Below are positions 1 through 64,000 of a stretch of DNA of 64,000 nt, piece by piece. The number at the start of each line of letters is the position of its first letter. Positions within the stretch are counted from its first letter, which is position 1. Both the position numbers and the translations under genes were made by a program. The stretch spans positions 1 through 64,000 of the forward strand of contig NZ_VSLG01000013.1 of NCBI RefSeq assembly GCF_008919445.1, in the 5' to 3' direction. The notes below the pieces were generated by a model, which was given only the letters and a program-made list of their open reading frames with translations, was not told where the DNA came from and did no database searches. This DNA is from Serinicoccus kebangsaanensis. Its GTDB lineage: Bacteria > Actinomycetota > Actinomycetes > Actinomycetales > Dermatophilaceae.

Positions 1-1
1 C

Positions 2-94
2 CGACCACGCAAGACACTCGACTGGGCCACCCCCGCCGAGGCCATGGCCGAGCTACTCTCACTCACACCACCCGGTGGTGCAACCACGCTCTGA
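2..94 (+). CDS. IS30 family transposase, C-terminal end (partial)
   Basis: The first reading frame in the window is open from its edge and ends with a TGA. It encodes RPRKTLDWATPAEAMAELL followed by a short tail. The pattern RPRKTLxWxTPAEA is the hallmark of the extreme C-terminus of IS30-family DDE transposases, which catalyse cut-and-paste or circle-mediated transposition. Only the last 30 residues are visible, so it cannot be said whether the element is intact. It lies about 140 bp from a tRNA-Ser gene that points toward it. The element's right inverted repeat should lie just past the stop, but I could not identify it without the left end. Confidence 0.8.
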   Translation, partial: RPRKTLDWATPAEAMAELLSLTPPGGATTL

Positions 95-176
95 GACCGC
101 CGTGCCTGAGCCGTTCTCGACGGGCGTGTCGTCGGGACGAGCGCCTCACGGGCACAGGGACGCCCGGCATACACAG

Positions 177-211
177 GAACGGGCCGACCCGCACTGCGGA
201 TCGACCCGTTC
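177..211 (-). terminator. Hairpin downstream of tRNA-Ser
   Basis: GAACGGG and CCCGTTC close a stem that continues inward with one mismatch as CGACCCGC against GCGGATCG, around a 3-nt loop. It lies about 20 bp beyond the 3' end of the minus-strand tRNA-Ser gene. There is no clear T-run, as is common in high-GC actinomycetes. Confidence 0.5.
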
Positions 212-231
212 GTTTCCCCTGAGGGGGTGGG

Positions 232-318
232 CGGTGGCGGTGGGATTTGAACCCACGGAGGACTTGCGCCCTCACACGCTTTCGAGGCGTGCTCCTTAGG
301 CCGCTCGGACACGCCACC
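232..318 (-). tRNA. tRNA-Ser(CGA)
   Basis: On the minus strand the gene starts GGTGGCG and ends CGCCACC plus a G discriminator, which pair as the acceptor stem. The anticodon loop reads CTCGAAA (anticodon CGA, codon UCG). The T arm is GTGGG-TTCAAAT-CCCAC and there is a long class II variable arm typical of serine tRNAs. CCA is not encoded. The gene is 87 nt long. Confidence 0.95.
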
Positions 319-366
319 GCCGCCGAGGTTACCTGACGGGTCGGGGGCCACCCAAAACTGCCGAGG

Positions 367-873
367 TCAGCGACGAGGCCCGAAGAAGCCGGTCAGCAGG
401 GCGGCGCAGTCCTGCTCCAGCACCCCCCCGACCACCTCCGGCCGGTGCAGCGCCCGGCGGTCCCTCGGCAGGTCCCAGACCGATCCGCAGGCCCCGGCCT
501 TGTCGTCCCAGGCGCCGAAGACGATCCGGTCGACGCGCGCCAGCAGGGCCGCGCCCGCACACATCGCGCACGGCTCCAGGGTGACGACCAGGGTGCAGCC
601 CTCGAGCCGCCACGCGGAGCGGGCACGCCCAGCCTGGCGCAGGGCGACGATCTCCGCGTGCCCGGTGGGGTCGTGCTCCGCCTCCCGCACGTTGTGCCCG
701 CGCCCGACCACCTCGCCCCCGCCGTCCACGACGAGCGCACCGATCGGCACGTCCCCGGCGGCGCCCACCCGCCGCGCCTCGAGGACCGCCTCACGCACCC
801 AGGAGGCATACCGGTCCGTCCCCCAGGAGGCACCCACGGGTCCGTCGGGCGAGGTGTCGGCGGTGCGGCTCAC
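367..873 (-). CDS. tadA: tRNA-specific adenosine(34) deaminase TadA
   Basis: This is a cytidine/deoxycytidylate-deaminase-fold zinc enzyme of 168 aa. It carries the HAE motif (His72, Glu74) and PCAMC (Cys102, Cys105), the zinc-binding and proton-shuttle residues. The spacing and the sequence around GALVV and [15 protein letters not shown] match TadA, which converts A34 to inosine in tRNA-Arg(ACG). A tRNA-Arg(ACG) gene, its expected substrate, lies at 15.1 kb. The start codon is GTG. The gene is divergent from upp with only 17 bp between start codons, so the two -10 boxes must overlap. A generic nucleoside deaminase is the alternative, but length and context favour TadA. Confidence 0.85.
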
Positions 874-877
874 GCCC

Positions 878-883: not shown

Positions 884-890
884 CTGGCGT

Positions 891-1529: not shown

Positions 1530-1537
1530 GCAGGGGT

Positions 1538-2734
1538 ATGCCTCCCGACCAGCCCGCGCGCACCCGCTCCGCGCGGGTCTCGGCCCGGTCGGCCGTGGAG
1601 CCGTTCCACGTCATGGAGGTGCTCAAGGCCGCCGCGGCACGGCAGCGCAGCCACGGTGACGTGATCATGCTGTGCGCCGGCCAGCCGTCGACGCCGGCAC
1701 CCGCTGTCGCCCGGGCGGCCGCCATCGAGGCGCTGGACACCGACGTGCTGGGCTACACCGAGTCCACCGGGATCCTGCCGTTGCGGCGCGCGGTCGCGGC
1801 CTATCACCAGCAGATGTCCGGCGTGGAGGTGTCACCCGAGGACGTGGTGGTCTTCCCCGGCAGCTCCGGTGCGTTCACCGCGCTCTTCCTCGCCGCCTTC
1901 GACCCCGGCGACCGGGTGGCGATGACGCGGCCCGGCTACCCGGCATACCGCAACAGCCTTGCGGCCCTCGGGTGCGAGGTGGTCGAGCTGGACTGCGGTC
2001 CGGGCACGAGGTTCCAGCCCACCGTCGCAATGCTGGAGTCGCTGCCCGAGCCGCCCGCCGGGTTGATCGTCGCCTCCCCCGCCAACCCGACCGGCACCGT
2101 CATCGACCCCACCGAGCTCGCCAGCCTGGCCCTCTGGTGCGAAGAGCACGGGACGCTGCTCATCAGCGACGAGATCTACCACGGCCTCAGCTACGGGCGG
2201 CAGACTGCGAGCGCCTGGGAGACGAGCCGGGAGAGCGTCGTCGTCGGCTCGGTGAGCAAGTACTTCTCGATGACCGGCTGGCGGGTCGGCTGGCTACTGG
2301 CGCCCGCGTCCCTGCGCCGACCGCTGGAGATCATCACCGGCAACCTCAACATCTGCCCGCCCGCCGTCGGGCAGCACGCGGCCATCGCCGCGCTCGGCGA
2401 GTCCGCGCGTTGCGAGCTGGACACCCACCGCGAGCGGTATGCCACGACCCGCCAGGTGCTGCTGCGGCGGCTGCCGGAGATCGGGTTGCGGGACTACGCC
2501 CCGCCGGACGGCGCCTTCTACGCCTGGTGCGACATCGGGCACCTCACCGAGGACTCGGTGCGGTGGTGCCGGGACCTGCTCGACGACTGCGGCGTGGCCC
2601 TCACGCCCGGGGTCGACTTCGACACGGTCGAGGGCCACCGCAAGGTGCGGCTCAGCTTCGCCGGGTCGACCGCCGAGGTGGAGGAGGCGCTGGACCGGAT
2701 GGCGGCCTCCCCGCTGCTGCGGCCCACCACCTGA
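1538..2734 (+). CDS. Class I/II pyridoxal-phosphate aminotransferase
   Basis: This 398-aa fold-type I aminotransferase probably acts on aspartate, alanine or a related amino acid. It shows the PLP landmarks PANPTG (residues 181-186), SDEIYHGLSYG (from 210) and SVSKYFSMTGWRVGW with the Schiff-base lysine at about Lys241. The reading frame is open further upstream inside upp, but that part is a shadow frame; the ATG at 1538, 8 nt after the upp stop and preceded by CAGGGG, is the sensible start. That start codon lies inside the over-represented motif GGTATGCC. Substrate cannot be set from sequence alone. Confidence 0.85.
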   Translation: MPPDQPARTRSARVSARSAVEPFHVMEVLKAAAARQRSHGDVIMLCAGQPSTPAPAVARAAAIEALDTDVLGYTESTGILPLRRAVAAYHQQMSGVEVSPEDVVVFPGSSGAFTALFLAAFDPGDRVAMTRPGYPAYRNSLAALGCEVVELDCGPGTRFQPTVAMLESLPEPPAGLIVASPANPTGTVIDPTELASLALWCEEHGTLLISDEIYHGLSYGRQTASAWETSRESVVVGSVSKYFSMTGWRVGWLLAPASLRRPLEIITGNLNICPPAVGQHAAIAALGESARCELDTHRERYATTRQVLLRRLPEIGLRDYAPPDGAFYAWCDIGHLTEDSVRWCRDLLDDCGVALTPGVDFDTVEGHRKVRLSFAGSTAEVEEALDRMAASPLLRPTT

Positions 2735-3796: not shown

Positions 3797-4141
3797 ATGG
3801 ACGGACACGTGCTCGATCGCTCCGACGGCCGCGACGACGGCGAGGACTGGACCGAGAACTTCACCGAGCTCCCCGGCGGGGCGGGCATCTCGATCATCCT
3901 GGAGTCGACCGGCGAGGCCGGCGTGGGTCCGCGGTTGCACCGGCACCCGTATGCCGAGACCTTCATCATCCGACGCGGCAGCGCCCTCTTCACCATCGGC
4001 GCGGACCAGGTCGAGGGCAGGGCCGGTCAGGTGCTCGTCGTCCCGGCGGGCACTCCGCACACGTTCCGCACCGGCCCTGGGGGCTACGAGGCGGTGCACA
4101 TCCACGCCAGTGCGACCTTCGAGACCGAGTGGCTGGAGTGA
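3797..4141 (+). CDS. Cupin-domain protein
   Basis: A 114-aa single-domain small beta-barrel. Cupin motif 1 is seen as PRLHRHPYAETFIIRRGSA, giving His-x-His and Glu metal ligands at about residues 48-54, and motif 2 as GTPHTF (about 85-90). Such stand-alone cupins are often mononuclear metal enzymes or ligand-binding barrels; the substrate is not predictable. It is transcribed divergently from the DUF2867 gene. Confidence 0.8.
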   Translation: MDGHVLDRSDGRDDGEDWTENFTELPGGAGISIILESTGEAGVGPRLHRHPYAETFIIRRGSALFTIGADQVEGRAGQVLVVPAGTPHTFRTGPGGYEAVHIHASATFETEWLE

Positions 4142-4245
4142 GCTCGGGGGCGACACGCGCGCGGGGATGAGAGTCGGCATACCTCGTCACATCTGCCACA
4201 CTGACAACAGACCCGTGTCCACTCGTCCAGCGAAAGGCACCTGAC

Positions 4246-6462: not shown

Positions 6463-7365
6463 ATGTCCCGGCCCGGCTCCGTGAGCAGGCGCACCGTGCT
6501 CGCCGCCCTCACCGGCACCGGTGCGCTGGCGGCCTGCTCGGGCCAGGTCGACGAGCCGGACCGCTCGTCGACGACCCCGGGAGACGGGACGGACAGGACC
6601 GGAGAGGAGAGCGGGATGACCGCTGACGGAGACCAGGCCCTGGGCGAGGGGCGGATCTCCTACGGCGACGACGAGTCGCAGTGGGTCGAGCGGCTGGTGC
6701 CGGAGGGCAGCAGCCGGGGCACCGTGGTGGTCATCCACGGCGGCTTCTGGAGGGAGCGGTATGCCGCCGACCTGGGGACGCCGTTGGCGCGCGACCTGAC
6801 GTCGCGAGGTTGGACCACGCTCAACGTGGAGTACCGGCGGGTCGGCAACGGTGGCGGGTTCCCCCAGACGTTCGACGACGTCCACGCCGCCATCGAGCTC
6901 GCGGACGGTGACGGACCGGTGGTCACCCTCGGCCACTCCGCCGGCGGCCAGCTCGCGACCTGGGCCGCGGGTCGGCTGCGGACCGGACGGTGGGACGGTC
7001 AGGTCGAGGTGACCCATGTCCTGTCCCAGGCGGGGGTGCTGGACCTCGGCACGGCATACCAGGAGCGCCTGGGCGGCGGCGCGGTCGAGGACTTCCTCGC
7101 CGCGACCCCGGACGATCCGCTCTACGACCTGGTGGACCCGATCCGGCAGGTGCCCGTGCCCGCCCCGGTCTGGGCGCTGCACGCCCCCGACGACGGGCAG
7201 GTCCCGATCACCCAGTCGGAGGACTACGTGGCAGCCGCTCGTACCGCCGGAGGCGACGCCGAGCTGGTCGAGGTCACGGGCGGCCACTTCGACCTGATCG
7301 ACGTCGGCTCGCCGGCCTGGGCCGCCGTCGTCGGCATCCTCGACGGCATCACCGAGGCCCGCTGA
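6463..7365 (+). CDS. Alpha/beta-hydrolase lipoprotein
   Basis: A 300-aa exported esterase-like protein. It begins with an RR-containing signal (VSRRTVLAALTG) and lipobox LAAC at about Cys25. The domain has an HGG oxyanion motif (VIHGGFW), the nucleophile elbow GHSAGG (Ser159), an acid in APDDGQVP, and His275 in GGHFDL. This order matches arylformamidase/BD-FAE-like carboxylesterases. Residues 26-60 are a polar, probably disordered linker. The RBS GAGGAGG precedes the ATG. The substrate is not known. Confidence 0.8.
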   Translation: MSRPGSVSRRTVLAALTGTGALAACSGQVDEPDRSSTTPGDGTDRTGEESGMTADGDQALGEGRISYGDDESQWVERLVPEGSSRGTVVVIHGGFWRERYAADLGTPLARDLTSRGWTTLNVEYRRVGNGGGFPQTFDDVHAAIELADGDGPVVTLGHSAGGQLATWAAGRLRTGRWDGQVEVTHVLSQAGVLDLGTAYQERLGGGAVEDFLAATPDDPLYDLVDPIRQVPVPAPVWALHAPDDGQVPITQSEDYVAAARTAGGDAELVEVTGGHFDLIDVGSPAWAAVVGILDGITEAR

Positions 7366-7465: not shown

Positions 7466-8454
7466 TGCAGCAGCAGCCCGTCCCACGTGGCACCGGTCCG
7501 ACGCCGGTGCGCCGCCACCGCCTCAGTGCTCCTCACCAGGGAGCGAGTGCCGAGGCCGCGGGCACGCTCCACGATGGACCGCATGCGCTCCAGGTCGTCG
7601 AGGTCCGACCAGACGAGTCGCGCCACGCCATAGCCCAGGCGACGTATGGCGTCCTCCCGGCACTTCTCCCGGACCAGCGCCGCGCGTCCCTCGGCGCCGG
7701 CATACTTCACCGCACCATCGACCTCGACGACGACGCCCAGGTCGGGGAGCAGGAAGTCCACCCTGGCCACGAAGGCCCCGCTCTCCTCGTCGACCACGAA
7801 CTGGGGGATGACGCGGTAGCCGAGCGCGAGCAGCCGGAGCCTCGCCTTCGACTCGGCCGCCGACTCTGCGGTGGGGCTCACCTGGGCGACGACGTGCCGA
7901 GCCGTCGACAGGTGCGGGCGGTGACGCATCGACTCCACCCAGCTCAGCATGGCCTCCCTGGTGGCGAGGCCGGCGCGCAGGGCCGCGTCACCAGCGCAGA
8001 TGCCGGCATCCGCACCCGCCTCGACCGCGGTGCCGACGACGGCCAGCGCCGGCGTCACCACCGGGTGCCGACCCACGAGGCCGAAGGCGTCCCGCCGAGC
8101 GGGGCACGCGTGCACCGTGAGGCCGCCGTGGCTGCGGGTGGCCGCGGTCCCAGCCGTGCGGCTGAGATGCACCCTCGTGAGAGCACCGGACAGGACGGGC
8201 AGCCGCCAGAGCAGGGCGCCGCTCTGGTGGCTGGCGGCCACCTCCGTGCGCCCCCGGAGCATCGCGACCACGGTGCGGGTGGCATCCGTCGTCAGGTCTG
8301 TGGACGGCTGCACGTAGGCACCGCGGCCCACCCTGCGCAGCCTCCCCCGCGAGCTGAGCCGGCGCAGGTCGTTCGGACCGAGCCCGAGCCTCCTGGCCTC
8401 GGCCGAGGTGATCGCGCCGTCGTGAGCGGCGAGGAAGGCCGCGAGCTGGTCCAT
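7435..8454 (-). CDS. AbiEi-like / DUF559 (Vsr-fold) domain protein
   Basis: A 339-aa protein. Residues 1-50 form the winged-helix type found at the start of type IV antitoxins of the AbiEi kind (DQLAAFLAAHDGAITSAEARRLGLG). The middle resembles the AbiEi family body (RGAYVQPS, ASHQSGALLWRLP). The C-terminal third holds a DUF559 nuclease-like domain: ESKARLRLLALGYRVIPQF, VARVDFLLPDLGVVVEVDG and a KCREDAIRRLGYGVARL segment, in which E...D...ExD resembles a PD-(D/E)xK/Vsr core. No AbiEii toxin gene lies beside it. The start at 8454 fits the family; a longer frame runs upstream to 8598. It is bracketed by two copies of a palindromic repeat. Confidence 0.75.
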   Translation of the reverse strand: MDQLAAFLAAHDGAITSAEARRLGLGPNDLRRLSSRGRLRRVGRGAYVQPSTDLTTDATRTVVAMLRGRTEVAASHQSGALLWRLPVLSGALTRVHLSRTAGTAATRSHGGLTVHACPARRDAFGLVGRHPVVTPALAVVGTAVEAGADAGICAGDAALRAGLATREAMLSWVESMRHRPHLSTARHVVAQVSPTAESAAESKARLRLLALGYRVIPQFVVDEESGAFVARVDFLLPDLGVVVEVDGAVKYAGAEGRAALVREKCREDAIRRLGYGVARLVWSDLDDLERMRSIVERARGLGTRSLVRSTEAVAAHRRRTGATWDGLLLHSYAAVAPRP

Positions 8455-8647: not shown

Positions 8648-10051
8648 CTACATGTCCTCGAGCTCGCGGCCCTTGGTCTCCGGCACGAACTTCAGCACGA
8701 AGAAGAGGCTCAGCAGGGCGAAGAGGGTGTAGAAGCCGTAGGCGAAGCCCAGGCCCACGTCAGCCATGGCCGGGAAGCTCGTGGAGATGAGGAAGTTGGC
8801 GAGCCACTGTGCCGCAGCCGCCACACCCAGCGCGGTGGCGCGGATCGCGTTGTTGAACATCTCGCCGAGCAGCACCCACACCGCCGGGCCCCAGGACATA
8901 CCGAAGAAGACCACGAAGGCGTTCGCGGCGAGCAGGGCCACCAAGCCGGTGGAGTCGCTCAGCTGCGGCGCCTCGTCCACGATCGGCGCGTTGGCGAAGA
9001 TCCAGGCCATCGTCCCCAGCGAGAGGAACATGCCGGAGGAGCCGATGATCAGCAGCAGCCGACGACCGATCTTGTCGATGAGCGCGATGGCGACGACGGT
9101 CACCACGATGTTGGTCACCGAGGTGATGACGGTCTGGGTGAGCGCGTCCTCCTCGGTGAAGCCGACCGCCTGCCACAGCGTCGAGGAGTAGTAGAAGATC
9201 ACGTTGATCCCGACGAACTGCTGGAAGACGGACAGCGCGATGCCGACCCAGACGATCGGCAGCAGCCCGCCGCCCGGCTTCATCAGGTCGCGCAGCGATG
9301 CCTTGGCCTCCCGGCGCACGGTGCGCTGGATCTCCTTGATCCGCTCCGGTATGCCCGTCATCATCACCCGGCCGAGCACCTCGCGCGCCTCGTCCAGCCG
9401 CCCGAGGGTCACCAGGTAGCGCGGGGACTCGGGGATCGTGGTCGCGAGCACGCCGTAGGCGACGGCGGGGATGATCTCCGCCCAGAACATCCACCGCCAG
9501 GCGGTGCTGCCCCAGAGCGCCTCGCCGGAGCCGCCGGCGACGTTGGCGAGGAAGGCGTCGGACAGCAGCGCGATGAAGATGCCGACGACGATCGCCATCT
9601 GCTGCAGCGACCCGAGCCGTCCGCGGATCGACGCGGGGGCGATCTCGGCGATGTAGGCGGGTGCGATCACCGAGGCCGCACCGACACCGAGGCCGCCGAC
9701 GACCCGCCAGAAGAGCATGTCCACCGGGCCGAAGGCGAAGCCCGAGCCGATGGCGGAGATGGTGAACAGCGCGGAGGCGATCATCATCACCCGGATGCGA
9801 CCGAGCCGCTCCGCAAGGCGTCCGGCCAGGTAGGCGCCCGCGACGCAGCCGAGCAGCGCCGAGCTCACGACGAAGCCGGTGAGGACCGAGCCCATCTCGA
9901 AGTCCGCGCGCATGGCGTTGACCGCACCGTTGATGACGGCCGTGTCGAAGCCGAAGAGGAACCCTCCGAGCGCCGCCACCGACGCCAGCAGGATCGCCTT
10001 GCCCAAGTAGTAGTCGCGCTCCCCGACCTGCACCCGCGGACTCTGGGTCAT
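8648..10051 (-). CDS. MFS sugar transporter (sugar porter family)
   Basis: A 467-aa protein with 12 predicted transmembrane helices. Sugar-porter signatures are clear: GFLFGFDTAVINGA (helix 1), RLAERLGRIRVMM (loop 2-3), PESPRYL after helix 6, QQFVGINVIFYYSSTLW (helix 7), DKIGRR and the terminal PETKGREL. It is likely a proton-coupled sugar importer in the cytoplasmic membrane; the sugar is unknown. The ATG at 10051 lies 9 nt after AGGAAG; a GTG three codons upstream abuts that RBS and is less likely. It is divergent from an aminotransferase, with two palindromic operator-like sites between them. Confidence 0.9.
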   Translation of the reverse strand: MTQSPRVQVGERDYYLGKAILLASVAALGGFLFGFDTAVINGAVNAMRADFEMGSVLTGFVVSSALLGCVAGAYLAGRLAERLGRIRVMMIASALFTISAIGSGFAFGPVDMLFWRVVGGLGVGAASVIAPAYIAEIAPASIRGRLGSLQQMAIVVGIFIALLSDAFLANVAGGSGEALWGSTAWRWMFWAEIIPAVAYGVLATTIPESPRYLVTLGRLDEAREVLGRVMMTGIPERIKEIQRTVRREAKASLRDLMKPGGGLLPIVWVGIALSVFQQFVGINVIFYYSSTLWQAVGFTEEDALTQTVITSVTNIVVTVVAIALIDKIGRRLLLIIGSSGMFLSLGTMAWIFANAPIVDEAPQLSDSTGLVALLAANAFVVFFGMSWGPAVWVLLGEMFNNAIRATALGVAAAAQWLANFLISTSFPAMADVGLGFAYGFYTLFALLSLFFVLKFVPETKGRELEDM

Positions 10052-15161: not shown

Positions 15162-15337
15162 TGGCGAACGACAACTCTAACGGATCGCCCAGGGGGCACG
15201 AAATCTGCGCAGCTTTCCGCTGCGGCAGTGTGACCAACGACGCATCGGGGGTATGCCGTCGCGCCGCTACCGTGGGAGCGGTCGGGCAGCGCAGCCCGGC
15301 GGACACGACTGGCAAGGGCGCCAGGAAGGGATGTGCG

Positions 15338-19293: not shown

Positions 19294-19305
19294 TCAGCAC
19301 GACCT

Positions 19306-19541: not shown

Positions 19542-19610
19542 CGTTCCAGGTATGCCGAAGGCCCCCGCCACCAGCTGGTGACGGGGGCCTTCGCGGAAGG
19601 TCCTGGAACG
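19542..19610. terminator. Two-tier palindrome between the tandem array and csp
   Basis: Outer arms CGTTCCAGG (19542-19550) and CCTGGAACG (19602-19610) enclose an inner stem GAAGGCCCCCGCCACC / GGTGACGGGGGCCTTC (19557-19592, one mismatch). It probably terminates the minus-strand cold-shock gene that ends 8 bp away, and perhaps also the LCP transcript. The flank between the tiers contains GTATGCC. Confidence 0.7.
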
Positions 19611-32132: not shown

Positions 32133-32158
32133 GGACCAGGTATGCCGTGTCCCGGCGG

Positions 32159-38059: not shown

Positions 38060-38158
38060 CCTGCTCCCCTCTCCTCCTCGAGCCTCGAAGCGAGATCGAC
38101 CCTAGCGGGGCATACCGACGGCGCCGCAGCCGACCCACCCACTCCGAGTGTGGTCGGG

Positions 38159-54053: not shown

Positions 54054-54454
54054 CGGGCTACTTCGTCGACACCGCCGTCTTCGCGTATGCCGTCGGCGCG
54101 CCGCACCCCCACCGCGACGGGTGCCGCTCGTTCCTCCGGTCCGCCGCGAGACACCGCATACCGCTGCACGCCAGCTCCGAGGCGGTCCAGGAGTTCCTCT
54201 TCCACCGTCTGCGACGGGGAGGTCGTGCCGCTGCTGTCGCCCAGACGCGCGCGATGATGGACGGCCTGGTCCTGCACCCGGTGGACCAGCAGGTGCTCGA
54301 CCGCTGCCTCGAGCTCGTCACGACGACGCCGCTGCGCGGGCGTGACGCGGTGCACGCCGCCACCGCCTTGCTCGCGGGCTTCGACGAGATCGTCACGACG
54401 GACGCAGACTTCGCGGGCTGCGGCCTCCGCGTAGTCCCCCCCGCGCGGGCCTGA
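54050..54454 (+). CDS. vapC: Toxin, PIN-domain ribonuclease (VapC-like)
   Basis: A 134-aa PIN nuclease. The acidic residues are Asp7 (FVDTAVF), Glu44 (SSEAVQEF), Asp99 (GRDAVHAAT) and Asp118/Asp120 (TTDADF), the Mg-binding cluster of VapC toxins, which cleave tRNA or rRNA. The GTG start is coupled to the antitoxin stop. The stop lies in CCTGACC at the edge of the right palindromic repeat, just as the DUF368 stop lies at the left one. Confidence 0.9.
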   Translation: MTGYFVDTAVFAYAVGAPHPHRDGCRSFLRSAARHRIPLHASSEAVQEFLFHRLRRGGRAAAVAQTRAMMDGLVLHPVDQQVLDRCLELVTTTPLRGRDAVHAATALLAGFDEIVTTDADFAGCGLRVVPPARA

Positions 54455-54518: not shown

Positions 54519-55971
54519 AGGCCCAGGCGAGGGCCCGGGCAGGGTCCTCCAGGAGGGCCGCCAGGTCGGCGAGGAACATCGAGCCCAGCTCGCCGTCGAT
54601 GAGGCGGTGGTCGAAGCTCACCGCCAGCTGGGTCACCCAGCGCGGCTCGATCCGCTCCTGCTCCCCGCTGCCCACGACCCACGGCATACGCCGGACCGCG
54701 CCGAAGCACACGATCGCCGACTCCCCCGGGTTGATGATCGGCGTGCCCGTGTCGACGCCGAAGACGCCGACGTTGGTGATGGTGATCGTCCCGCCGGACA
54801 TGTCCGCCGGCTGGGTGCGCCCGGCCTTCGCGGTCGCGACCAGGTCGGTCATCGCCTCCGCGAGCTGGCGCAGGTCCATCAGGTCGGCGTCCTTGATGTT
54901 GGGCACCACGAGGCCGCGCGGGGTGGCGGCGGCGATGCCCAGGTTGAGGTAGTTGCGCTGCACGATCTGCTGCGCGTCCTCGTCCCACACGGCGTTCACG
55001 CCCGGGTTGCGGCGCACCGCCACGGTCATCGCCTTGGCCAGGACGAGCAACGGGTTGATCCGCAGGTCGCGCAGGGCACGGTCCGCCTTGAGCCGCTCGA
55101 TGAGCTCCATCGTGCGGGTCACGTCGACGGTGATGAACTCGGTGACGTGCGGCGCGCTGAACGCCGACCCGACCATGGCCTGGGCGGTCATCTTCCGGAC
55201 GCCCTTGACGTCGATCCGCTCCTCGCGCTCGCCGGAGCGGTCGAGCACCGGCCGCTGGTATGCGCTCGCGCCGGTCGCCGGGGCGGAGGCGCCCTCGACC
55301 TCCGGTGCGGTCGGGGCGCCACCAGGGTCGTCGCCCGGTGCAGCAGGTGAGGACCCTCCGTCGACGAAGGCATCGATGTCGGAGCGCCGGACGATCCCGG
55401 TCGGGCCGGCGGCCGTGACCTGGTTGATGTCCACGCCGCGGTCCTGGGCGTACTTGCGCACCGGGGGCGAGGCCTTGGCCTTGCGCTGCGGCGTGGCGTC
55501 CGCCTCGGCCTCGGCACCGGACGCGCCCCGCCGCCGCTTGCGCCGGGTCGTCGACCCCTCGATCGCGCCGTAGCCGACGAGCATCGCCTCCCGCTTGCTC
55601 TCGGTGCCGCCCTGCCCGCCCTCGGGCGCCGTGGGGACCAGGTCGTCGGAGGCCGCGGTCGCCTCGTCGGTGACCTCGGCCGGGTCGTTCCCGCCGGACG
55701 CGGCGGCACCCCCACCGCCGCTCGCGCCGCCCCCGTCGCCGTTGTCGATGAGCACGATCGGGGTGCCGACCTCCACCTCGTCGCCCTCGGCGGCGAGCAG
55801 CTCGGTCACCGTCCCGTCCCAGGGGATGGGCAGCTCGACCAGGGACTTCGCGGTCTCCACCTCGACGACGATGTCGTTGGTCTTCACGGTGTCGCCGACG
55901 GCGACCTTCCACTGGATGATCGTGGCCTCGACGAGACCTTCACCCGGGTCGGGGAGCTTGAACTCTGGCAC
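54517..55971 (-). CDS. 2-oxo-acid dehydrogenase E2 (dihydrolipoyl acyltransferase)
   Basis: A 484-aa protein. The lipoyl domain is at 1-80, with the lipoylated Lys in VVEVETAKSLVEL. A Gly/Ala-rich linker and the peripheral subunit-binding domain (VRKYAQDRGVDINQVTAAGPTG, read in part) follow at about 175-215. The acyltransferase core ends with SFDHRLIDGELG, holding the catalytic His and Asp. With the two E1 genes upstream it forms a branched-chain 2-oxo-acid or pyruvate dehydrogenase complex. No E3 gene is in the cluster. The GTG start matches the family N-terminus. Confidence 0.92.
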   Translation of the reverse strand: MPEFKLPDPGEGLVEATIIQWKVAVGDTVKTNDIVVEVETAKSLVELPIPWDGTVTELLAAEGDEVEVGTPIVLIDNGDGGGASGGGGAAASGGNDPAEVTDEATAASDDLVPTAPEGGQGGTESKREAMLVGYGAIEGSTTRRKRRRGASGAEAEADATPQRKAKASPPVRKYAQDRGVDINQVTAAGPTGIVRRSDIDAFVDGGSSPAAPGDDPGGAPTAPEVEGASAPATGASAYQRPVLDRSGEREERIDVKGVRKMTAQAMVGSAFSAPHVTEFITVDVTRTMELIERLKADRALRDLRINPLLVLAKAMTVAVRRNPGVNAVWDEDAQQIVQRNYLNLGIAAATPRGLVVPNIKDADLMDLRQLAEAMTDLVATAKAGRTQPADMSGGTITITNVGVFGVDTGTPIINPGESAIVCFGAVRRMPWVVGSGEQERIEPRWVTQLAVSFDHRLIDGELGSMFLADLAALLEDPARALAWA

Positions 55972-57055: not shown

Positions 57056-58243
57056 TCAGTCCTCGAACCCGGCCTGGTAGTCCGCGAACAGCGCGGACTC
57101 GCGCTCGATGAGCGTGTGCGGCTCGGCATACACGTGCGCGAACATCTCCTCGTGCGGCGGGTCGGGCATGGTCTGGCACGCCTTGCGGATCCGCGCGGCG
57201 AGCTGGTCGGCCTCTCCTTCAGTCTGCTCGACCCACGCGTCGTCGATGACTCCCTCGCTGGTGAGGTATGCCGTCATCCGGTCGATCGGGTCCTTCGCCT
57301 TCCAGGCGTCCACCTCGGCGGAGATGCGGTACTTCGTCGGGTCGTCGGAGGTCGTGTGCGCACCCATCCGGTAGGTGAACGCCTCGATCAGCGTCGGCCC
57401 CTGGCCGCTCCGCGCCCGCTCCAGGGCGTGCCGGGTGACGGCATAGCTGGCGAGCACGTCGTTGCCGTCCACCCGGATCCCGGGGAAGCCGAAGCCGTCG
57501 GCGCGGCGGTAGGGCGGGATGGTGAACTGGCGGTCGTTCGGCTCGGAGATGGCCCAGTGGTTGTTCTGCACGTAGAACACGACCGGGGCGTTCGTCACGG
57601 AGGCGAAGACCAACGACTCGTTGAAGTCGCCCTGCGCGGTGCCCCCGTCACCGGTGAACGCCATCACCGCGGTGTCGCGGTCCGGGTCGCCGGTCCCGAC
57701 GTCGCCGTCGCGGGCGGCGCCCATGGCGTACCCGACGGCGTGCAGCATCTGGTTGCCGATGACGATGGTGTAGAGGTGGAAGTTGTTCTCGTTGGAGTCC
57801 CACCCCCCGTGGTTGACCCCGCGGAACATGCCGAGCAGGTTCTCCGGCGGGACGCCCTTGCACCAGGCGACGCCGTGCTCGCGGTAGCCGGGGAAGGCGT
57901 AGTCCTGCGGTCGCATCGCGCGGCCCGCGCCGACCTGGGCGGCCTCCTGGCCGAGCAGGCTGGGCCACAGCCCGAGCTCCCCCTGGCGCTGCAGCGCGAA
58001 CCCCTCGGCGTCCACCCTGCGGACCATGATGAGGTCGCGCAGCATGTCCTTCATCGCGGCCTGGTCGACGTCCTCGAGGTAGGCGGCGTACGGCTCGTTC
58101 GTGGCGGTCAGCTCGACCCGGGTCCCGTCGGCGGCGAGGAACTGGACCATGTCCGGCCCGCCGTCGGTGATGTCCCGCTCCGGCGGTTGGTGGTCCTGGG
58201 TCACCGGGGCGGTGCTGCTCGGCGCGACCTCGTCGTCGCTCAC
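57056..58243 (-). CDS. 2-oxo-acid dehydrogenase E1 alpha
   Basis: A 395-aa subunit. The thiamine-diphosphate motif is GDGGTAQGDFNESLVFAS followed by NNHWAISEP, and the phosphorylation-loop-like YRMGAHTTSDDPTKYR is near 310. The order E1 alpha, E1 beta, E2 is the actinobacterial bkd arrangement for branched-chain amino acid degradation and fatty-acid primer supply. The GTG at 58243 follows GAAGGAG with 6 nt spacing. Upstream TTGACG and TAACGT may belong to its promoter but the spacing is not convincing. Confidence 0.93.
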   Translation of the reverse strand: MSDDEVAPSSTAPVTQDHQPPERDITDGGPDMVQFLAADGTRVELTATNEPYAAYLEDVDQAAMKDMLRDLIMVRRVDAEGFALQRQGELGLWPSLLGQEAAQVGAGRAMRPQDYAFPGYREHGVAWCKGVPPENLLGMFRGVNHGGWDSNENNFHLYTIVIGNQMLHAVGYAMGAARDGDVGTGDPDRDTAVMAFTGDGGTAQGDFNESLVFASVTNAPVVFYVQNNHWAISEPNDRQFTIPPYRRADGFGFPGIRVDGNDVLASYAVTRHALERARSGQGPTLIEAFTYRMGAHTTSDDPTKYRISAEVDAWKAKDPIDRMTAYLTSEGVIDDAWVEQTEGEADQLAARIRKACQTMPDPPHEEMFAHVYAEPHTLIERESALFADYQAGFED

Positions 58244-58804: not shown

Positions 58805-59893
58805 ATGACCGAGCAGTCCTCGCCCGTCCGCCTGCGCACCGCCCTGGCCGGAGTGCCTGCCTACGTCCCCGGCAAGCCCCCGGCACCGGTCGAGGGGGTG
58901 AGGGCCTACAAGATCTCCTCCAACGAGAACCCCTACCCCCCGCTGCCGTCGGTCACGCAGGCCATCTCCGACGCCGCGCAGCAGGTCAACCGCTACCCGG
59001 ACATGGGGGTCGTGGCACTGACCGAGGCGCTGTCGGCCGAGCTCGCGCTCCCGGCGGCCCAGCTCGCCACCGGCACCGGCAGCGTCGCGGTGCTCGCCCA
59101 GCTGGTCGCGATCACCTGCGAGCCGGGCGACGAGGTGGTGTATGCCTGGCGCAGCTTCGAGGCATACCCGATCGTCGTGGCGCTGTCCGGGGCGGCCTCG
59201 GTCCAGGTGCCGCTGGACGCGGACGCGCGGCACGACCTGGACGCCATGGCGGACGCGATCACCGACCGCACCCGGCTGGTGCTGGTCTGCACCCCGAACA
59301 ACCCGACCGGGCCGGCGGTCACCGAGGCCGAGCTGCGGGCCTTCCTCGACCGGGTGCCCCGCGACCTGCTGGTGGTCATCGACGAGGCCTACCTGGAGTT
59401 CACCACCGACGAGACCGTGCCGGACGCCCTGGCGCTGGCGCACGAGCGCCCGAACGTCGTCGTGCTACGCACCTTCTCCAAGGCCTACGGGCTGGCCGGG
59501 CTGCGGGTCGGGTATGCCGTCGCGCACCCGGAGATCGCGACCGCGCTGCGCAAGGCGGCGACCCCGTTCGGCGTCACCGACCTGGCCCAGGCGGCGGCGA
59601 TCGCCAGCCTCGGCGCCAAGGACGAGCTGATGGTGCGGGTCAAGGAGCTGGTCGGCGAGCGGGAGCGGGTCGTGGCCGCGTTGCGCGAGCAGGGGTGGGA
59701 CGTGCCGCAGGCGCAGGGCAACTTCTGCTGGCTGCCGCTCGGGGACGAGGCCGTCCCGTTCGCGCAGGCGGCCCAGGCGAAGGGGCTCATGGTGCGGCCG
59801 TTCGCGGGCGACGGCGTCCGCTGCACGATCGGCGAGACCGAGGCCAACGACCGGCTGCTCGAGGTCGCCGCGGACTGGCAGCGGTCGAGCTAG
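58805..59893 (+). CDS. hisC: Histidinol-phosphate / aromatic aminotransferase
   Basis: A 362-aa PLP aminotransferase. [15 protein letters not shown] is the HisC start block, [11 protein letters not shown] (about 169-179) and VIDEAYLEF are cofactor loops, and [16 protein letters not shown] carries the Schiff-base Lys and phosphate-binding Arg. It is isolated from any his operon, so it may instead be the second HisC copy that serves phenylalanine/tyrosine synthesis in actinomycetes. Either substrate is possible. Confidence 0.88.
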
Positions 59894-60380: not shown

Positions 60381-60911
60381 CTACGCGCTGCTGGTCGGGG
60401 TGACGGACTCGCCCGCGTAGGTGACGACCTGGCCCGGGCGCACCTGGGTGCCGCGCCGCATCATGGTCTCGCCGTCGACCGTGACCTCGCCGTTCTCGAT
60501 CACCATCCGCGCCATGGCGCCGTCCTGGACCAGGCCGGCCAGCTTGAGCAGCTGCCCCAGCCGGATGCTCTGGTCACGGATCTCGACGGTGGCCGCGTCG
60601 GTGCCGTCGCCGTGCGCGTCGTCGGCGCCCTCGAGCAGGTCGGCGTGCTCCGGGTGCTCGGCGAGGTAGCGGGGGACGAACGGGCAGGTCGGGCGCACCC
60701 GCAGACCCTCGGCACGGGCATACCCCATCGCCTCCTCGACCAGGCGTCCGCCGAGGCCTTGCCCGCGGCCCTCGGGGTCGACGACCGTGTGCTGCAGGTC
60801 GAGGACGTCGCCCTCCAGCTCGTAGGACAGGTGGCCGACGGCGCGGCCCTCGGCCTGCGCCTCGAAGCGGTCCTGGTCAGCCAGGTGGACGATCTCCGGT
60901 CCGGTGCTCAT
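60381..60911 (-). CDS. GNAT-like domain fused to an S4-type RNA-binding domain
   Basis: A 176-aa two-domain protein. Residues 1-95 match small YjdJ-type acetyltransferase-like proteins (VGHLSYELEGDVLDLQHTVV, read in part, EGRGQGLGGRLVEEAMGYA, CPFVPRYLAEHPEHADLL). Residues 108-172 match the YbcJ/YaaA-like S4 RNA-binding fold (IRLGQLLKLAGLVQDGAMAR, IENGEVTVDGETMMRRGTQ, VRPGQVVTYAGE). Both domains are complete and in one frame. The combination suggests acetylation of an RNA-bound or ribosomal target, which is speculation. The ATG lies 7 nt after a TACCCT box. Confidence 0.8.
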   Translation of the reverse strand: MSTGPEIVHLADQDRFEAQAEGRAVGHLSYELEGDVLDLQHTVVDPEGRGQGLGGRLVEEAMGYARAEGLRVRPTCPFVPRYLAEHPEHADLLEGADDAHGDGTDAATVEIRDQSIRLGQLLKLAGLVQDGAMARMVIENGEVTVDGETMMRRGTQVRPGQVVTYAGESVTPTSSA

Positions 60912-60918
60912 GGGGTTC

Positions 60919-60924
60919 AGGGTA
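60919..60924 (-). promoter_or_regulatory. -10 box (TACCCT), leaderless GNAT-S4 transcript
   Basis: On the minus strand TACCCT ends 7 nt before the ATG at 60911. It overlaps a GTATGCC motif. Confidence 0.45.
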
Positions 60925-60931
60925 TGCCTGC

Positions 60932-61711
60932 TCAGAGCCAGCCGACACGCCCGGCGAGCGCGGCGTAGCCGACGAAGGCGACGACGTCGAGCAGCGTGTG
61001 CGCGACCACCAGCGGCATCACCCGCCGGGTGCGGGTGTAGAACCAGCCGAGGATGACCCCCATGGCGACGTTGCCGACGAAGCCCCCGAAGCCCTGGTAG
61101 AGGTGGTAGCTGCCGCGCAGCAGCGCCGAGGTCAGGATGATGGTCCAGGTCGACCAGCCGGCCTGCGCCCAGCGGGTGAAGAGGTAGCCCACCGCGATGA
61201 CCTCCTCGACCACGGCGTTCTGGGCAGCGGCGAGGACGAGGACCGGCACGGCCCACCAGACCGAGGGCAGGTTGGCCGGGGCGACGCTGGTGTTGACGCC
61301 GAGCTCGCGGGCGAGCAGATACAGCCCCAGGCCGGGTATGCCGATCACCGCCGCCAGCATCGTCCCCTGCACCAGGTCTCGCAGCGGCTGGCGCCGGTCC
61401 AGGCCGAGCGCCGCCCACGGCCGCGGCAGCTCACGGGCGAGCAGGTGCAGCGCGAGGACCACGGGGACGAGCGCCAGCGCGATGCCGACGAGCTGGTAGG
61501 CCAGGTCCAGCCAGGGCTGGTCGGGCGCGGAGCTGGTGTTCATGCTGGTGGTCTGCCCCGCCAGACCGCCCTGCGCGGTGAGCTTGCGGAGCAGGCTGAG
61601 CAGGGACCAGACGGCGGACGCGCCCAGGCTGACGCCGAGCACGAGCACGGTCTCGGTCAGCAGGCTGCGGCGGGGCAGCGTGCTGGGTGGTGCCGGCAGC
61701 TGGGTGCTCAC
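60932..61711 (-). CDS. CPBP family intramembrane protease-like protein
   Basis: A 259-aa membrane protein with about seven helices. The CPBP/Rce1 motifs are AAAQNAVVEEVIAVGYLFTRW, read in part (Glu-Glu pair), SALLRGSYHLYQG (His) and LPLVVAHTLLD-like VMPLVVAHTLLD (His). Members cleave prenylated or bacteriocin-related substrates or are scaffolds; the target here is unknown. The GTG start lies 6 nt after a TAGCCT box. Confidence 0.9.
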   Translation of the reverse strand: MSTQLPAPPSTLPRRSLLTETVLVLGVSLGASAVWSLLSLLRKLTAQGGLAGQTTSMNTSSAPDQPWLDLAYQLVGIALALVPVVLALHLLARELPRPWAALGLDRRQPLRDLVQGTMLAAVIGIPGLGLYLLARELGVNTSVAPANLPSVWWAVPVLVLAAAQNAVVEEVIAVGYLFTRWAQAGWSTWTIILTSALLRGSYHLYQGFGGFVGNVAMGVILGWFYTRTRRVMPLVVAHTLLDVVAFVGYAALAGRVGWL

Positions 61712-61717
61712 CCGTCC

Positions 61718-61723
61718 AGGCTA
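61718..61723 (-). promoter_or_regulatory. -10 box (TAGCCT), leaderless CPBP transcript
   Basis: On the minus strand TAGCCT ends 6 nt before the GTG at 61711. Confidence 0.5.
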
Positions 61724-61787
61724 TGTCGTGGCGCCGGCCCGGGGGCTGCCACACCGGACGGTCGAGCCGCCAGGGACGCGGAGGGAC

Positions 61788-61830
61788 GCTGGCCGGGCAC
61801 CCGGTCACGGATCCAGGGTGCCCGGCCAGC
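61788..61830 (-). terminator. 15-bp perfect stem hairpin
   Basis: GCTGGCCGGGCACCC and GGGTGCCCGGCCAGC are exact reverse complements around a 13-nt loop. It lies about 70 bp beyond the stop of the low-complexity secreted protein gene and upstream of the CPBP promoter, so it is probably the terminator of the former. Confidence 0.7.
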
Positions 61831-61897
61831 GGGGCGGGCGGCAGGGAGTGCAGCGCAGGGGTGGCTGCTCCGCCCGGGCCTGACAGGTTAGTCCCCG

Positions 61898-62467
61898 TCA
61901 GTCGTCATCGTCGTCATCGTCGTCGTCCCAGTCGTCATCGTCGTCGTCGCACTCCTCCCAGCCGTCGTCGTCCCAGCACGCGGGAGCGGGCTGGACCGGC
62001 GCCGGCTGGGCCGGGGCGGGCTGCACGGGGGCGGGCTGCACGGGGGCGGGCTGGACGGGGGCGGGCTGGGCCTGCTGCTCGGCCTTGCGGGCGGCCTCCT
62101 GCTCGGCCTTCTTCTTCGCCGCAGCCTTCTCCTCGGCCTTCTTCTTCTCGGCCGCCTTCTTCTTGGCCGCGGCCTGCTCGGCCTTCTTCTCCGCAGCCTG
62201 CTTCTCGGCCGCGTCCCGGGCGTCGTCGAAGCTGCCGGACAGGTCCTGGGTGCCCTGGCGCATCGCGCTGACGAGGTGCAGGCTGATGACGGCCGGTCCG
62301 CCGGCGGTGCGGGCCTGGCCGACGAGGTCGTCGGGGCCGGCGTCCGCCAGGGCGCCGGCGACGACGATCCCCTCGGTCTCCTGGGCGTCCGCGGCTGCGT
62401 CGATCCACAGCCAGCCACCGGTGAGGCCGATGAGGACCAGGGCGAGTGCTGAGGCCACCATCTTCAT
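61898..62467 (-). CDS. Exported low-complexity protein: Lys/Ala coiled coil, QPAPV repeats, poly-Asp tail
   Basis: A 189-aa protein with no recognised family. Residues 1-28 are a signal peptide or membrane anchor (VASALALVLIGLTGGWLW). Residues 30-80 are a small soluble segment. Residues 85-130 are a Lys/Ala/Glu-rich helix (AAAKKKAAEKKKAEEKAAAK). Residues 132-163 are five or more QPAP(V/A) repeats. The last 25 residues contain two Cys and about 17 Asp with Trp interspersed (DDDDDDWDDDDDDDDD). The design looks like a cell-wall-spanning stalk with a cation-binding tip; that is inference. The Asp codons form GTC/GAC-type trinucleotide repeats. Confidence 0.7.
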   Translation of the reverse strand: MKMVASALALVLIGLTGGWLWIDAAADAQETEGIVVAGALADAGPDDLVGQARTAGGPAVISLHLVSAMRQGTQDLSGSFDDARDAAEKQAAEKKAEQAAAKKKAAEKKKAEEKAAAKKKAEQEAARKAEQQAQPAPVQPAPVQPAPVQPAPAQPAPVQPAPACWDDDGWEECDDDDDDWDDDDDDDDD

Positions 62468-62524
62468 GATCGGCAGTCTTCCTGGCCCAGGGGAGAGTCC
62501 GGTGAGACCCGGATGAGAGTCCTC

Positions 62525-64000
62525 TCATCCATCGAGGCCACCCGCCCATTCCTGGTCGGCCCACTCGATCACGCGGTCACGCCACCGGGGCCGGAAGGCA
62601 TAGACCGCCACCAGCCGCGCCACCGTGGCGACGCGGGCGAGCCTCAGTCGCCCTGGGTCCACCTGGTTGTCCGTCACGACCGCCGCCACGGCGTCGCCGA
62701 CCGTGCGCACGGCCTCGTCCGACCACAGTCCCTGAGCGCCGCGCCACCGCGCGTGCACCTCCAGGTTGGCCAGGTCCAGGGCCGGCTCGGCCCGGCACAC
62801 CGTGTCCAGGTCGATGACCGCGAGCCGGCTGCCGTCCCAGAGCAGCTGGCCGTCGTGCAGGTCGCGGTGCGCCGGCACCAGGGGTGTCCCGCCGGAGGCG
62901 GCGAGCCGCTGCGCGGTCCGCTCGATGCGGTCCGGCCACGGCGTCCCCGCGAGCAGTCCCAGGGAGGCCGACCTGGCCGCCCAGGTCCGGAGCACCTCGG
63001 CCTCGTGCCGGGGCGTGTGCTCGGCCCCCTCGGGCCCGTCGAGCCGCTGCCAGCGGGTCCACGCCGCGGCCCAGGTCCGCCAGATCTGCGGCCACCGCGG
63101 GTCGGCGGACAACCGCTGCACGGGTATGCCCCGCAGCGCCTGGTAGCGGACGGTGTCGTCGGTGAGCTCCAGCACGTCGGCGGCCTCCAGCCCGGCGGCG
63201 CGGGCGAGCCGGGCGCCGTCCACCGAGCCGGCGGCCAGGGGCGTGGCCCGTCCGGGACGGACCACCTTCAGGTAGCCGTCCTGCCGGTGCACGACCGCGC
63301 GCCGTCCTGCCCGGTGCACCAGCAGGCTGCCCGCCCGGGCGGCCCCGGCCAGAGCTGGGAGCCGGGGGTCCTGACCGGGTGGGTGGAGCTCGACGTCGCC
63401 GCCGGGGGTGAGGTGGCCCGCGCGCAGGCGACCCCTCGCGTCCCGCCCCTCGACCGCCACCCGCACCGTCCCGTCGCGCTCCGGGGCGGGCCAGGCACGC
63501 GCCACCTCCATGCCCTCCCCGGTGGTCGGGTCCTCGACCCGGGCGGGCACCTGCCAGCCCGGCCAGCGCGCCGGCGGCGCGGTGTGCGCCCACCCGTCCA
63601 CGGCGTGCGCGGCCTGCGCGCCGCGGGCCAGCAGACCGCTGGCGAGCAGGTCCAGCGCGACCCGGCCCAAGGCCTCCGTCCGCTCCTCCCACAGTGGTGC
63701 CTGGGCGCGCCAGGGCTCGGCGATCCGGCCCAGCAGCGCGGCGGCCACCCAGGGTGCGTCGCTGCCGCTGTCCCCGCGGCCGTAGCCCGCCTCGAAGGCT
63801 GCGAGCAGGTCGGACCCTCGCCGATCCTGCTCCACGTCGCCCTCGGCGTCGGCGTCGACCTCCTGGACGATCCGGGCGGCGGCCATCGCGGCGAGGTCGA
63901 CCTCGGGCGGGCCGGTGGCGGCGCGGTCGAGATCGGTCAGCAGCACGGAGCCGTCCGCGGCCACGAGGACCTGGTCGAGGGACAGGTCTCCGTGCAGCAG
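62525..64000 (-). CDS. Phosphotransferase with two APH-like kinase modules (partial, 5' end beyond window)
   Basis: The frame is open to the window edge and 491 residues are visible. A first kinase-like C-lobe appears at once (LLHGDLSLDQVL, then LLTDLDRAA). A second complete lobe holds VPAHRDLHDGQLLWDGSRLAV, read in part, and VIDLDTVCRAEPALDLANLE, the HxD/IDxD pattern of aminoglycoside phosphotransferase-like enzymes. The middle contains a small beta-rich segment (RDARGRLRAGHLTPGGDVEL). Two tandem APH-like modules in one chain suggest a large paired kinase of unknown substrate. No nearby resistance gene supports a drug-modifying role. Confidence 0.75.
   Translation of the reverse strand: MLHGDLSLDQVLVAADGSVLLTDLDRAATGPPEVDLAAMAAARIVQEVDADAEGDVEQDRRGSDLLAAFEAGYGRGDSGSDAPWVAAALLGRIAEPWRAQAPLWEERTEALGRVALDLLASGLLARGAQAAHAVDGWAHTAPPARWPGWQVPARVEDPTTGEGMEVARAWPAPERDGTVRVAVEGRDARGRLRAGHLTPGGDVELHPPGQDPRLPALAGAARAGSLLVHRAGRRAVVHRQDGYLKVVRPGRATPLAAGSVDGARLARAAGLEAADVLELTDDTVRYQALRGIPVQRLSADPRWPQIWRTWAAAWTRWQRLDGPEGAEHTPRHEAEVLRTWAARSASLGLLAGTPWPDRIERTAQRLAASGGTPLVPAHRDLHDGQLLWDGSRLAVIDLDTVCRAEPALDLANLEVHARWRGAQGLWSDEAVRTVGDAVAAVVTDNQVDPGRLRLARVATVARLVAVYAFRPRWRDRVIEWADQEWAGGLDG

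Follow-up and report, generated by a model that had tools for sequence, protein, structure and literature searches.

GTATGCC, an over-represented word in Serinicoccus and its family, as a possible and hitherto undescribed mark of self DNA that is read by direction

GTATGCC sites in the window and across the genome

The stretch of Serinicoccus kebangsaanensis DNA analyzed here (contig NZ_VSLG01000013.1, positions 1 to 64,000; hereafter the window, 64 kb) contains 67 copies of the heptamer GTATGCC, i.e., 37 on the + strand and 30 on the - strand, as compared to 5.9 copies predicted by base composition; the hexamer TATGCC occurs 73 times on both strands. Sites were listed as exact matches to GTATGCC, and genes were called with a small script of our own, with no annotation used.

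On the + strand, copies outside called genes are found at 15251..15257, 19550..19556, 32140..32146 and 60922..60928, and further copies at 1536..1542, 2437..2443, 3949..3955, 6759..6765, 9349..9355, 11693..11699, 13485..13491, 16252..16258, 17901..17907, 18540..18546, 21091..21097, 22024..22030, 25727..25733, 28802..28808, 30882..30888, 31035..31041, 33895..33901, 34429..34435, 36849..36855, 38044..38050, 39192..39198, 40105..40111, 43999..44005, 46125..46131, 46311..46317, 46833..46839, 50964..50970, 54085..54091, 57266..57272, 59512..59518, 61336..61342 and 63124..63130. Copies on the - strand lie outside called genes at 166..172, 4176..4182 and 38109..38115, and also at 805..811, 1942..1948, 7053..7059, 7699..7705, 10443..10449, 10658..10664, 14351..14357, 15615..15621, 24909..24915, 28967..28973, 30606..30612, 32930..32936, 34790..34796, 35248..35254, 36211..36217, 37379..37385, 40159..40165, 42622..42628, 44739..44745, 49316..49322, 50179..50185, 51320..51326, 52185..52191, 54683..54689, 57125..57131 and 60717..60723. 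The copies at 59140..59146 (+) and 59161..59167 (-) represent the left and right arm of an inverted pair.

These counts agree with the initial annotation of this DNA, which had estimated by hand 65 to 75 copies of TATGCC, mostly as GTATGCC, against approx. six expected copies of the heptamer, on both strands and in genes as well as gaps. Its example sites near 10446, 24910 and 44740 start at 10443, 24909 and 44739, and the rarity it reported for GTACGCC/GGCGTAC was borne out by four copies in the window (at 28857, 55447, 57725 and 58085, each within one base of the position it gave). The genome-wide count that it proposed yielded 2,643 copies of GTATGCC in 3.5 Mb (1,323 on the + and 1,320 on the - strand), as compared to 124 copies (67 and 57 per strand) of the reversed word.

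Coding sequence called in this genome (439,623 bases) contained 329 copies of GTATGCC, as compared to 29.1 in a synonymous-codon shuffle, and the excess was present in all six frames; intergenic sequence contained 31 copies as compared to 3.0 expected. The enrichment thus is a DNA-level signal, as the initial annotation had read it. Codon-pair bias, which that annotation had named as the finding that would overturn its reading, does not account for the shuffle result, nor for the counts of TATGCA, TATGCG and TATGCT in the window (4, 12 and 0, respectively, vs. 73 for TATGCC).

Distribution and turnover of the word in the family

Among 149 genomes of the window's family, 86 (in 32 of 53 genera) contained at least 500 copies of GTATGCC, a threshold for high-copy genomes that was our own choice, while the other genomes contained hardly any. 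The high-copy genomes carry 536 to 4,856 copies, and density ranges from approx. 1 per 7 kb in the thinnest of them to 1 per 1.3 kb in S. kebangsaanensis and as much as 1 per 0.7 kb in genome G388. The heptamer is mostly part of GTATGCCG in these genomes, and its flanks vary by genus. Two genomes (G418 and G362) nearly lack the word, though it occurs in >1,000 copies in their congeners. In three congeners of the window, 23 of 45, 20 of 48 and 21 of 48 window sites were kept, which is approximately the rate observed for other heptamers with three A or T bases. These data show that GTATGCC is a fixed word limited to this family, with genus-dependent flanks, and that its sites turn over while density is kept.

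No plasmid record from the family was found among the best 40 of 1,344 listed, and a search of 32 motif genomes for the PF04860 portal, meant to test the word in prophages, gave no match. The literature searched yielded no description of the exact word.

Orientation of neighbouring copies

Pairs of GTATGCC located no more than 40 bp apart were inverted in 47 of 55 cases (8 direct). Neighbours at 60 to 600 bp were also predominantly inverted (446 inverted vs. 191 direct, in pooled counts that take in homologous stretches of related species), as compared to 38-46% inverted for 120 control words, which may include words overlapping GTATGCC. The same bias at 60 to 600 bp was observed within single genomes, i.e., S. 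kebangsaanensis (82 inverted, 37 direct) and its congener G412 (122 inverted, 64 direct); of 274 similarly frequent words in the former, only GTATGCC and its one-base shift had a bias this strong, and of 179 such words in the latter, GTATGCC alone did. Gaps between same-strand copies had no extra regularity at long range (CV 0.98), which indicates short-range avoidance rather than even spacing. As same-orientation copies are depleted at 60 to 600 bp, the reader of the word seems to be direction-sensitive.

The uptake words of Neisseriaceae (DUS) and Pasteurellaceae (USS) provided a small yardstick. From two sets of DUS/USS stretches (44 of 44 and 80 of 88), 20 and 22 were counted after removal of near-copies and low-density loci; as these loci were viral contigs (hosts unchecked) picked for holding an inverted pair, only distances above 60 bp were compared. 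At 60 to 600 bp, 36 pairs were inverted and 34 direct, which differs significantly from the 446 and 191 found for GTATGCC (P = 0.003; Fisher's exact test). This orientation indifference beyond hairpin range is our own measurement and not part of a published definition of DUS or USS.

On the complete chromosome of G412, 20 sampled stretches contained 185 and 193 copies on the two strands; single stretches ranged from 9/1 to 7/14, and long runs of one sign were absent (origin not located). The strong replichore strand skew of a KOPS/AIMS segregation motif was hence not seen in these stretches, and the segregation signal considered in the initial annotation was not upheld. A terminator role of inverted pairs was not shown either: the 34 intergenic inverted pairs with both neighbouring genes called were flanked by 20 tandem, 7 convergent and 7 divergent gene pairs, figures that have no baseline.

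Candidate reader and competing explanations

We tentatively propose that GTATGCC(G) marks self DNA throughout the genome for a direction-reading, sequence-specific DNA-processing machine, the putative reader, most likely acting in uptake of kin DNA during natural transformation. Of the readings offered by the initial annotation, a protein-binding site or uptake signal is thus the one favored here. Kin DNA bearing the word would pass through a receptor and then ComEC; copies would be created and kept by selection or biased import; and each copy would serve the DNA on one side only, so that a nearby second copy in the same orientation would be redundant while an inverted copy would not. Lineages would switch words when the reader changes. 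The word resembles DUS and USS in being short and asymmetric, with copy numbers in the hundreds to thousands and a density of approx. 1 per kb, in occurring in genes as well as intergenic regions without strand bias, in forming close inverted pairs, which are described for DUS/USS (PMC3630211; PMC12616744), and in being limited to a family with flank variants. Its density in S. kebangsaanensis lies near the average spacing of about 1,000 bp reported for the H. influenzae USS (PMC7811141), which favors the uptake reading. On the other hand, GTATGCC differs from DUS and USS by its occurrence in a high-GC actinobacterial family, its core of 7 to 8 bp, and the depletion of like-oriented neighbours up to approx. 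600 bp, a rule unseen in the small yardstick; H. influenzae uptake, moreover, is reported to be orientation-independent (PMC1939737). Both observations count against uptake.

The presence of the ComEC domain in 145 of the 149 genomes (in S. kebangsaanensis as an open frame of 877 residues with no stop) favors this reading, but the distribution of candidate genes otherwise counts against it. ComEC is equally present in genomes without the word, and no gene cluster near comEC separated the 12 genomes with the motif from the 8 without it that were compared (nearest, 4 of 12 vs. 0 of 8, with two contigs covered only in part). The type IV pilus protein PilM was detected in only 5 of 149. Flp pilin scored above the cut-off in 67 of 149, i.e., 49 of 86 high-copy and 18 of 63 other genomes, a weak association not corrected for kinship, and S. 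kebangsaanensis itself fell below the cut-off (best E 0.002). In these comparisons, a difference in competence genes was not supported as an explanation. The 8 matches listed, of 718, from the transformation literature did not name Intrasporangiaceae.

The main rival, although we consider it improbable, is a Chi-like site, i.e., an oriented octamer that marks self DNA for an end-entering helicase-nuclease of the AdnAB, AddAB or RecBCD type and turns degradation into recombination. Chi is reported to be read in one orientation only (PMC5443536), and Chi words to be over-represented and different between lineages (PMC8022716), as are GTATGCCG, GTACGCCG and CCCCTTCG. Like Chi, GTATGCC is short, oriented, lineage-specific and over-represented, and its same-orientation depletion suggests a similarly oriented reading. 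However, the balanced strands in G412 give no sign of the leading-strand polarization of Chi, GTATGCC forms close inverted pairs in excess, and G418 and G362, unlike their congeners, have hardly any copies. Close inverted pairs are not known as a feature of Chi; recognition below 100% would also favor clusters over repulsion.

Some other oriented function, such as a strand-specific repair entry, priming or packing site, is similarly doubtful. The 0.6 to 1 kb range of the same-orientation rule would fit any one-strand process of that length; however, lagging-strand priming or KOPS are unlikely because no replication-strand bias was seen, and a strand-specific nick site should avoid the close inverted pairs that are here in excess.

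It is quite unlikely that GTATGCC is kept by methyltransferase-linked repair, as Elhai's model has it for HIP1 of cyanobacteria. A shared feature is the replacement of one iterated word by another between lineages, reported for alternate HIPs (PMC4390886), but HIPs are palindromic while GTATGCC differs from its own reverse complement, and the model does not predict the orientation rule. The methyltransferase families PF00145 (49 of 86 high-copy vs. 32 of 63 low-copy genomes) and PF01555 (31 of 86 vs. 30 of 63) do not follow the distribution of the word, and neither is found in 28 of the 86 high-copy genomes (several of them incomplete), including G302 with 4,856 copies; for these two families, the methylation site suggested initially thus found no support.

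A dispersed REP/MITE-like element with a GTATGCC foot is very unlikely, also for the window. In Intrasporangium (three loci), 19 of the 27 sites do continue as GTATGCCGCTGRGC, and 3' flanks were more alike than shuffled columns in Terrabacter (0.80 vs. 0.52), Knoellia (0.54 vs. 0.21) and G085 (0.64 vs. 0.42), and slightly so in S. kebangsaanensis (0.69 vs. 0.58) and G412 (0.72 vs. 0.60), although codon rhythm probably explains part of this likeness. Sites in the window's genus, however, differ from those of relatives by point changes, with gap-free alignments for 41 of 45, 46 of 48 and 47 of 48 sites, and the majority of sites lie within called genes.

Decay of methylated GTACGCC to GTATGCC, the C-to-T drift put forward initially, is hardly credible, and neither is codon-pair bias. 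GTAC is scarce in the window (70 on both strands vs. 247.7 expected), which partly explains the lack of GTACGCC, and in the window's genus reaches 0.27 (S. kebangsaanensis) and 0.36 (G412) of the codon shuffle, which favors such decay. However, relatives carry CTACGCC, GTACGCC, GGATGCC, GTAGGCC, GTATGCG and others at positions homologous to window sites, of four gains polarized by outgroups, CTACGCC was the starting word in three and GTACGCC in one (with conflicting evidence for two others), GTATxx words besides GTATGC are mostly not enriched (except GTATGT, 33 vs. 16), and no orientation rule would be expected; the relatives' words, the codon shuffle and the polarized gains refute a mutational origin as the main cause of the excess.

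Sequence-marked DNA uptake is stated in PMC12616744 to occur, as far as known, in only two Gram-negative families; a comparable word shared by a family of actinobacteria would mean that it arose independently once more. A Chi-like word, in contrast, would represent a candidate actinobacterial Chi. The orientation rule would represent a purely computational footprint of reader movement along DNA, and genomes that have lost or changed the word offer natural comparisons in the search for its reader.

Samples of 80 to 120 kb from other actinobacteria revealed different words, CCCCTTCG and GTACGCCG, that follow the same orientation rule. We see an even chance that octamers iterated genome-wide and read by direction (GTATGCCG, GTACGCCG/GTACGTCG and CCCCTTCG) form a hitherto undescribed class in several lineages of actinobacteria, each lineage with its own word at similar density and with like-oriented copies kept apart within approx. 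600 bp, as the footprint of a self-recognizing DNA uptake or end-processing machine of changing specificity, the first in Gram-positive bacteria. A simple two-word C/T dialect was narrowed by G362, where the excess of GTACGCC is present in two frames only and the screen yielded GTACGGCG, a word that fails the orientation rule (11 inverted, 12 direct). At one Luteipulveratus locus, GTACGNCG gave 12 inverted and 12 direct pairs.

Abundance of GTATGCC and its relation to codon usage

In the initial annotation, roughly 65 to 75 copies of TATGCC or GGCATA, mostly within GTATGCC, had been counted in the window, with about six heptamers predicted; we found 37 + 30 copies of GTATGCC and its reverse complement GGCATAC, as compared to 5.9 expected from composition, and the coordinates given there were correct, including those of four GGCGTAC words. 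A genome-wide count, which the annotation had called for, gave 1,323 forward and 1,320 reverse copies in the assembly (37 contigs, 3,503,838 bases), while the control, GTATGCC read backwards, occurred 67 and 57 times. GTATGCC was also the top over-represented heptamer in 464 kb of this genome (352 vs. 21.4 expected; order-2 Markov model), where enrichment among its one-letter neighbours was highest for GTATGTC (36 vs. 8.2 expected) and GTAGGCC (116 vs. 56.5).

A simple codon model served to call genes, across which synonymous codons were then shuffled. Coding sequences of the genome contained 329 GTATGCC copies as compared to 29.1 in the codon shuffle, and each of the six frame/strand classes was enriched; this bears out the earlier suggestion of a DNA-level process rather than codon bias. 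Intergenic copies were likewise in excess (31 vs. 3.0 expected), and density was equal in genic and intergenic sequence (0.75 and 0.74 per kb). In larger sets, density was higher in intergenic than in genic sequence: per 10 kb, 9.0 vs. 7.4 in the genus set, 8.0 vs. 5.8 in other high-copy genera (at least 500 copies per genome) and 11.6 vs. 4.7 in 30 named loci. The reported scarcity of the high-GC counterpart GTACGCC held as well (24 coding copies vs. 149 in the codon shuffle). As a separate observation, GTAC is heavily depleted in the window's genus (0.27 of the codon shuffle in the window's genome, 0.36 in G412, a congener with a complete chromosome), most mildly before T (GTACTC, 94 vs. 117 expected); it is close to normal in two other sampled genomes, G085 (0.84) and G333 (1.08).

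Orientation of neighbouring copies and candidate readers

Strand totals were balanced in the 86 high-copy genomes (maximum deviation 2.3 standard units), totals that alone are blind to replichore skew. Along the complete congener chromosome, 20 stretches summed to 185/193 (single stretches from 9/1 to 7/14), which speaks against a segregation signal, one of the options initially listed.

Pairs of GTATGCC up to 40 bp apart were mostly inverted (47 of 55), and 35 of these 47 were intergenic. Beyond hairpin range, neighbour orientation was also non-random: pooled inverted/direct counts were 15/5 at 41-59 bp, 18/9 at 60-79 bp, 7/5 at 80-100 bp, 48/9 at 101-149 bp, 30/17 at 150-199 bp, 86/31 at 200-299 bp, 91/32 at 300-399 bp, 166/88 at 400-599 bp, 146/93 at 600-799 bp, 149/121 at 800-999 bp, 389/317 at 1-1.5 kb, 340/329 at 1.5-2 kb and 655/662 at 2-3 kb. 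Compared to the 2-3 kb level, we estimate that the deficit lies mainly in direct pairs and is about threefold at short range. Pooled control words (n = 120) were 38-46% inverted from 20 to 600 bp. At 60-600 bp, counts were 82/37 in the window's genome, where among 274 words of similar count only GTATGCC and its one-base shift reached this fraction, and 122/64 in G412, where only GTATGCC did so among 179 words. Inside single genes of the genus (40-600 bp) the counts were 147/63, with 46% inverted expected, and the window by itself gave 16/8. The reader of GTATGCC therefore seems to work in one direction, over a range of some 0.6-1 kb.

PMC4390886 names three kinds of such word, namely uptake sequences, Chi and HIPs. 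Uptake sequences are the best fit, judging by copy density, balanced strands, the inverted pairs, flanks that vary by genus and the loss of the word in close relatives. From this fit and the orientation rule, which suits a direction-reading machine, we tentatively propose that GTATGCC may be a self mark that is read in one direction, with DNA uptake as its likeliest purpose. The orientation rule was not seen in a small yardstick of uptake words in viral contigs (30/23 for the Neisseriaceae DUS, 6/11 for the Pasteurellaceae USS); a Chi-like, i.e., oriented recombination, site ranks second to the uptake reading and appears rather unlikely.

Gene evidence on uptake was neutral. ComEC was found in 145 and PilM in 5 of 149 family genomes, and Flp pilin was commoner in high-copy (49/86) than in low-copy genomes (18/63), a comparison that ignores kinship. 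Two methyltransferase families did not track GTATGCC copy class among the family genomes, and a search for a single phage portal family, PF04860, found it in 0 of 32 high-copy genomes.

Distribution, turnover and shape of the word

The closest named relatives of a protein encoded in the window belong to Serinicoccus and Ornithinimicrobium. In the family sample, 86 of 149 genomes carried at least 500 copies (maximum 4,856) and 63 fewer (minimum 19), and 32 of 53 genera had a high-copy member. Sharp contrasts occurred within genera: G418 had 83 copies vs. 1,307-1,709 in its congeners (genus g3), and G362 had 40 vs. 1,194 and 3,866 (genus g224). Among 293 phylum-sample genomes outside the family, the highest density was about 2.0 per 10 kb (G243), as compared to 7.5 in the window's genome, and the ratio to the reversed word peaked at about 4.5 (G019, G047). 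On a PEPCK tree of 81 proteins, loci whose density reached 3 copies per 10 kb or more clustered, mostly in Intrasporangiaceae and Ornithinimicrobiaceae, with 11 label changes vs. 24.4 in shuffles and apparent loss in places; these labels are noisy (single locus each), the labelled rows include unplaced MAGs, and a 3.6-kb Nocardioidaceae locus owes its label to two copies.

Single sites turn over while density is maintained. In alignments of the window to three congeners (84% identity), 23/45, 20/48 and 21/48 sites were kept, near the conservation of other three-A/T heptamers (0.47, 0.45 and 0.46), and four further alignment sets kept 8/31, 4/15, 5/12 and 4/14. Counterparts at unconserved sites included CTACGCC, GTACGCC, GGATGCC, GTAGGCC and GTATGCG, among others. 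Outgroups polarised four gains, three of them starting from CTACGCC and the fourth from GTACGCC, and two more were in conflict; no polarised losses were seen in this comparison. The variety of counterparts and the predominance of CTACGCC among gains argue against the initially suggested C-to-T drift at GTACGCC.

In other genera (11 sets), 92-100% of copies have G as the eighth base, a preference that is looser in the window's genus (62% in the window's genome, 59% in G412, 85% in G397/G340/G432, 98% in G438/G420). G is also preferred immediately before GTATGCC in the first three of these sets, and 19 of 27 copies in three Intrasporangium loci continue as GTATGCCGCTGRGC. The 12-letter Neisseria DUS has ATGCCG in common with the GTATGCCG core, probably by chance.

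Other iterated words in Actinobacteria

Whole-word searches of the open-access literature did not return GTATGCC; the two matches for GGCATAC, judging by titles and the starts of abstracts, concern prostate cancer and regulatory elements. Among the matches listed by topic searches of open-access literature, none described an iterated word in Actinobacteria.

In a frame-independent word screen that took no account of orientation, the top word was GGTATGCC or GTATGCCG in seven of seven high-copy sets and TATGCCG/GTATGCC in two more such sets. Other words that this screen gave in some actinobacteria follow the same orientation rule at 60-600 bp, in small samples: GTACGCCG in G333 (13/5), both GTACGCCG (10/2) and GTACGTCG (13/7) in four loci of Nocardioidaceae, and the octamer CCCCTTCG in G330 (25/8; 8.0 per 10 kb in L189-L193 and L183). 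The rule failed for GTACGGCG, the word from the screen of G362 (11/12); pooled counts for G333, Nocardioidaceae GTACGCCG and G330 were 48/15, or 59/27 with G362 added. The looser word GTACGNCG gave 48/34 in G333 and, in a single Luteipulveratus locus, 12/12; GTACGYCG gave 53/23 in Nocardioidaceae. In 14 Arthrobacter loci, CGCCGTCG occurred at 9.7 per 10 kb (265 coding vs. 128 in the codon shuffle) with the rule absent (79/96). No word of similar strength emerged from G303, G376, Pseudonocardia, Kineosporia or single 12-22-kb loci of other species.

A false top word in G139 was due to a CRISPR-like array in locus L116, from about 11774 (AAGCACT 57 times in the stretch, the copies listed being mostly 61 bp apart). 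In the window, a 38-bp tandem repeat (19301-19541; 6.3 copies, each with the palindrome ACCGCGGT) lies outside called genes and is followed by a GTATGCC at 19550.
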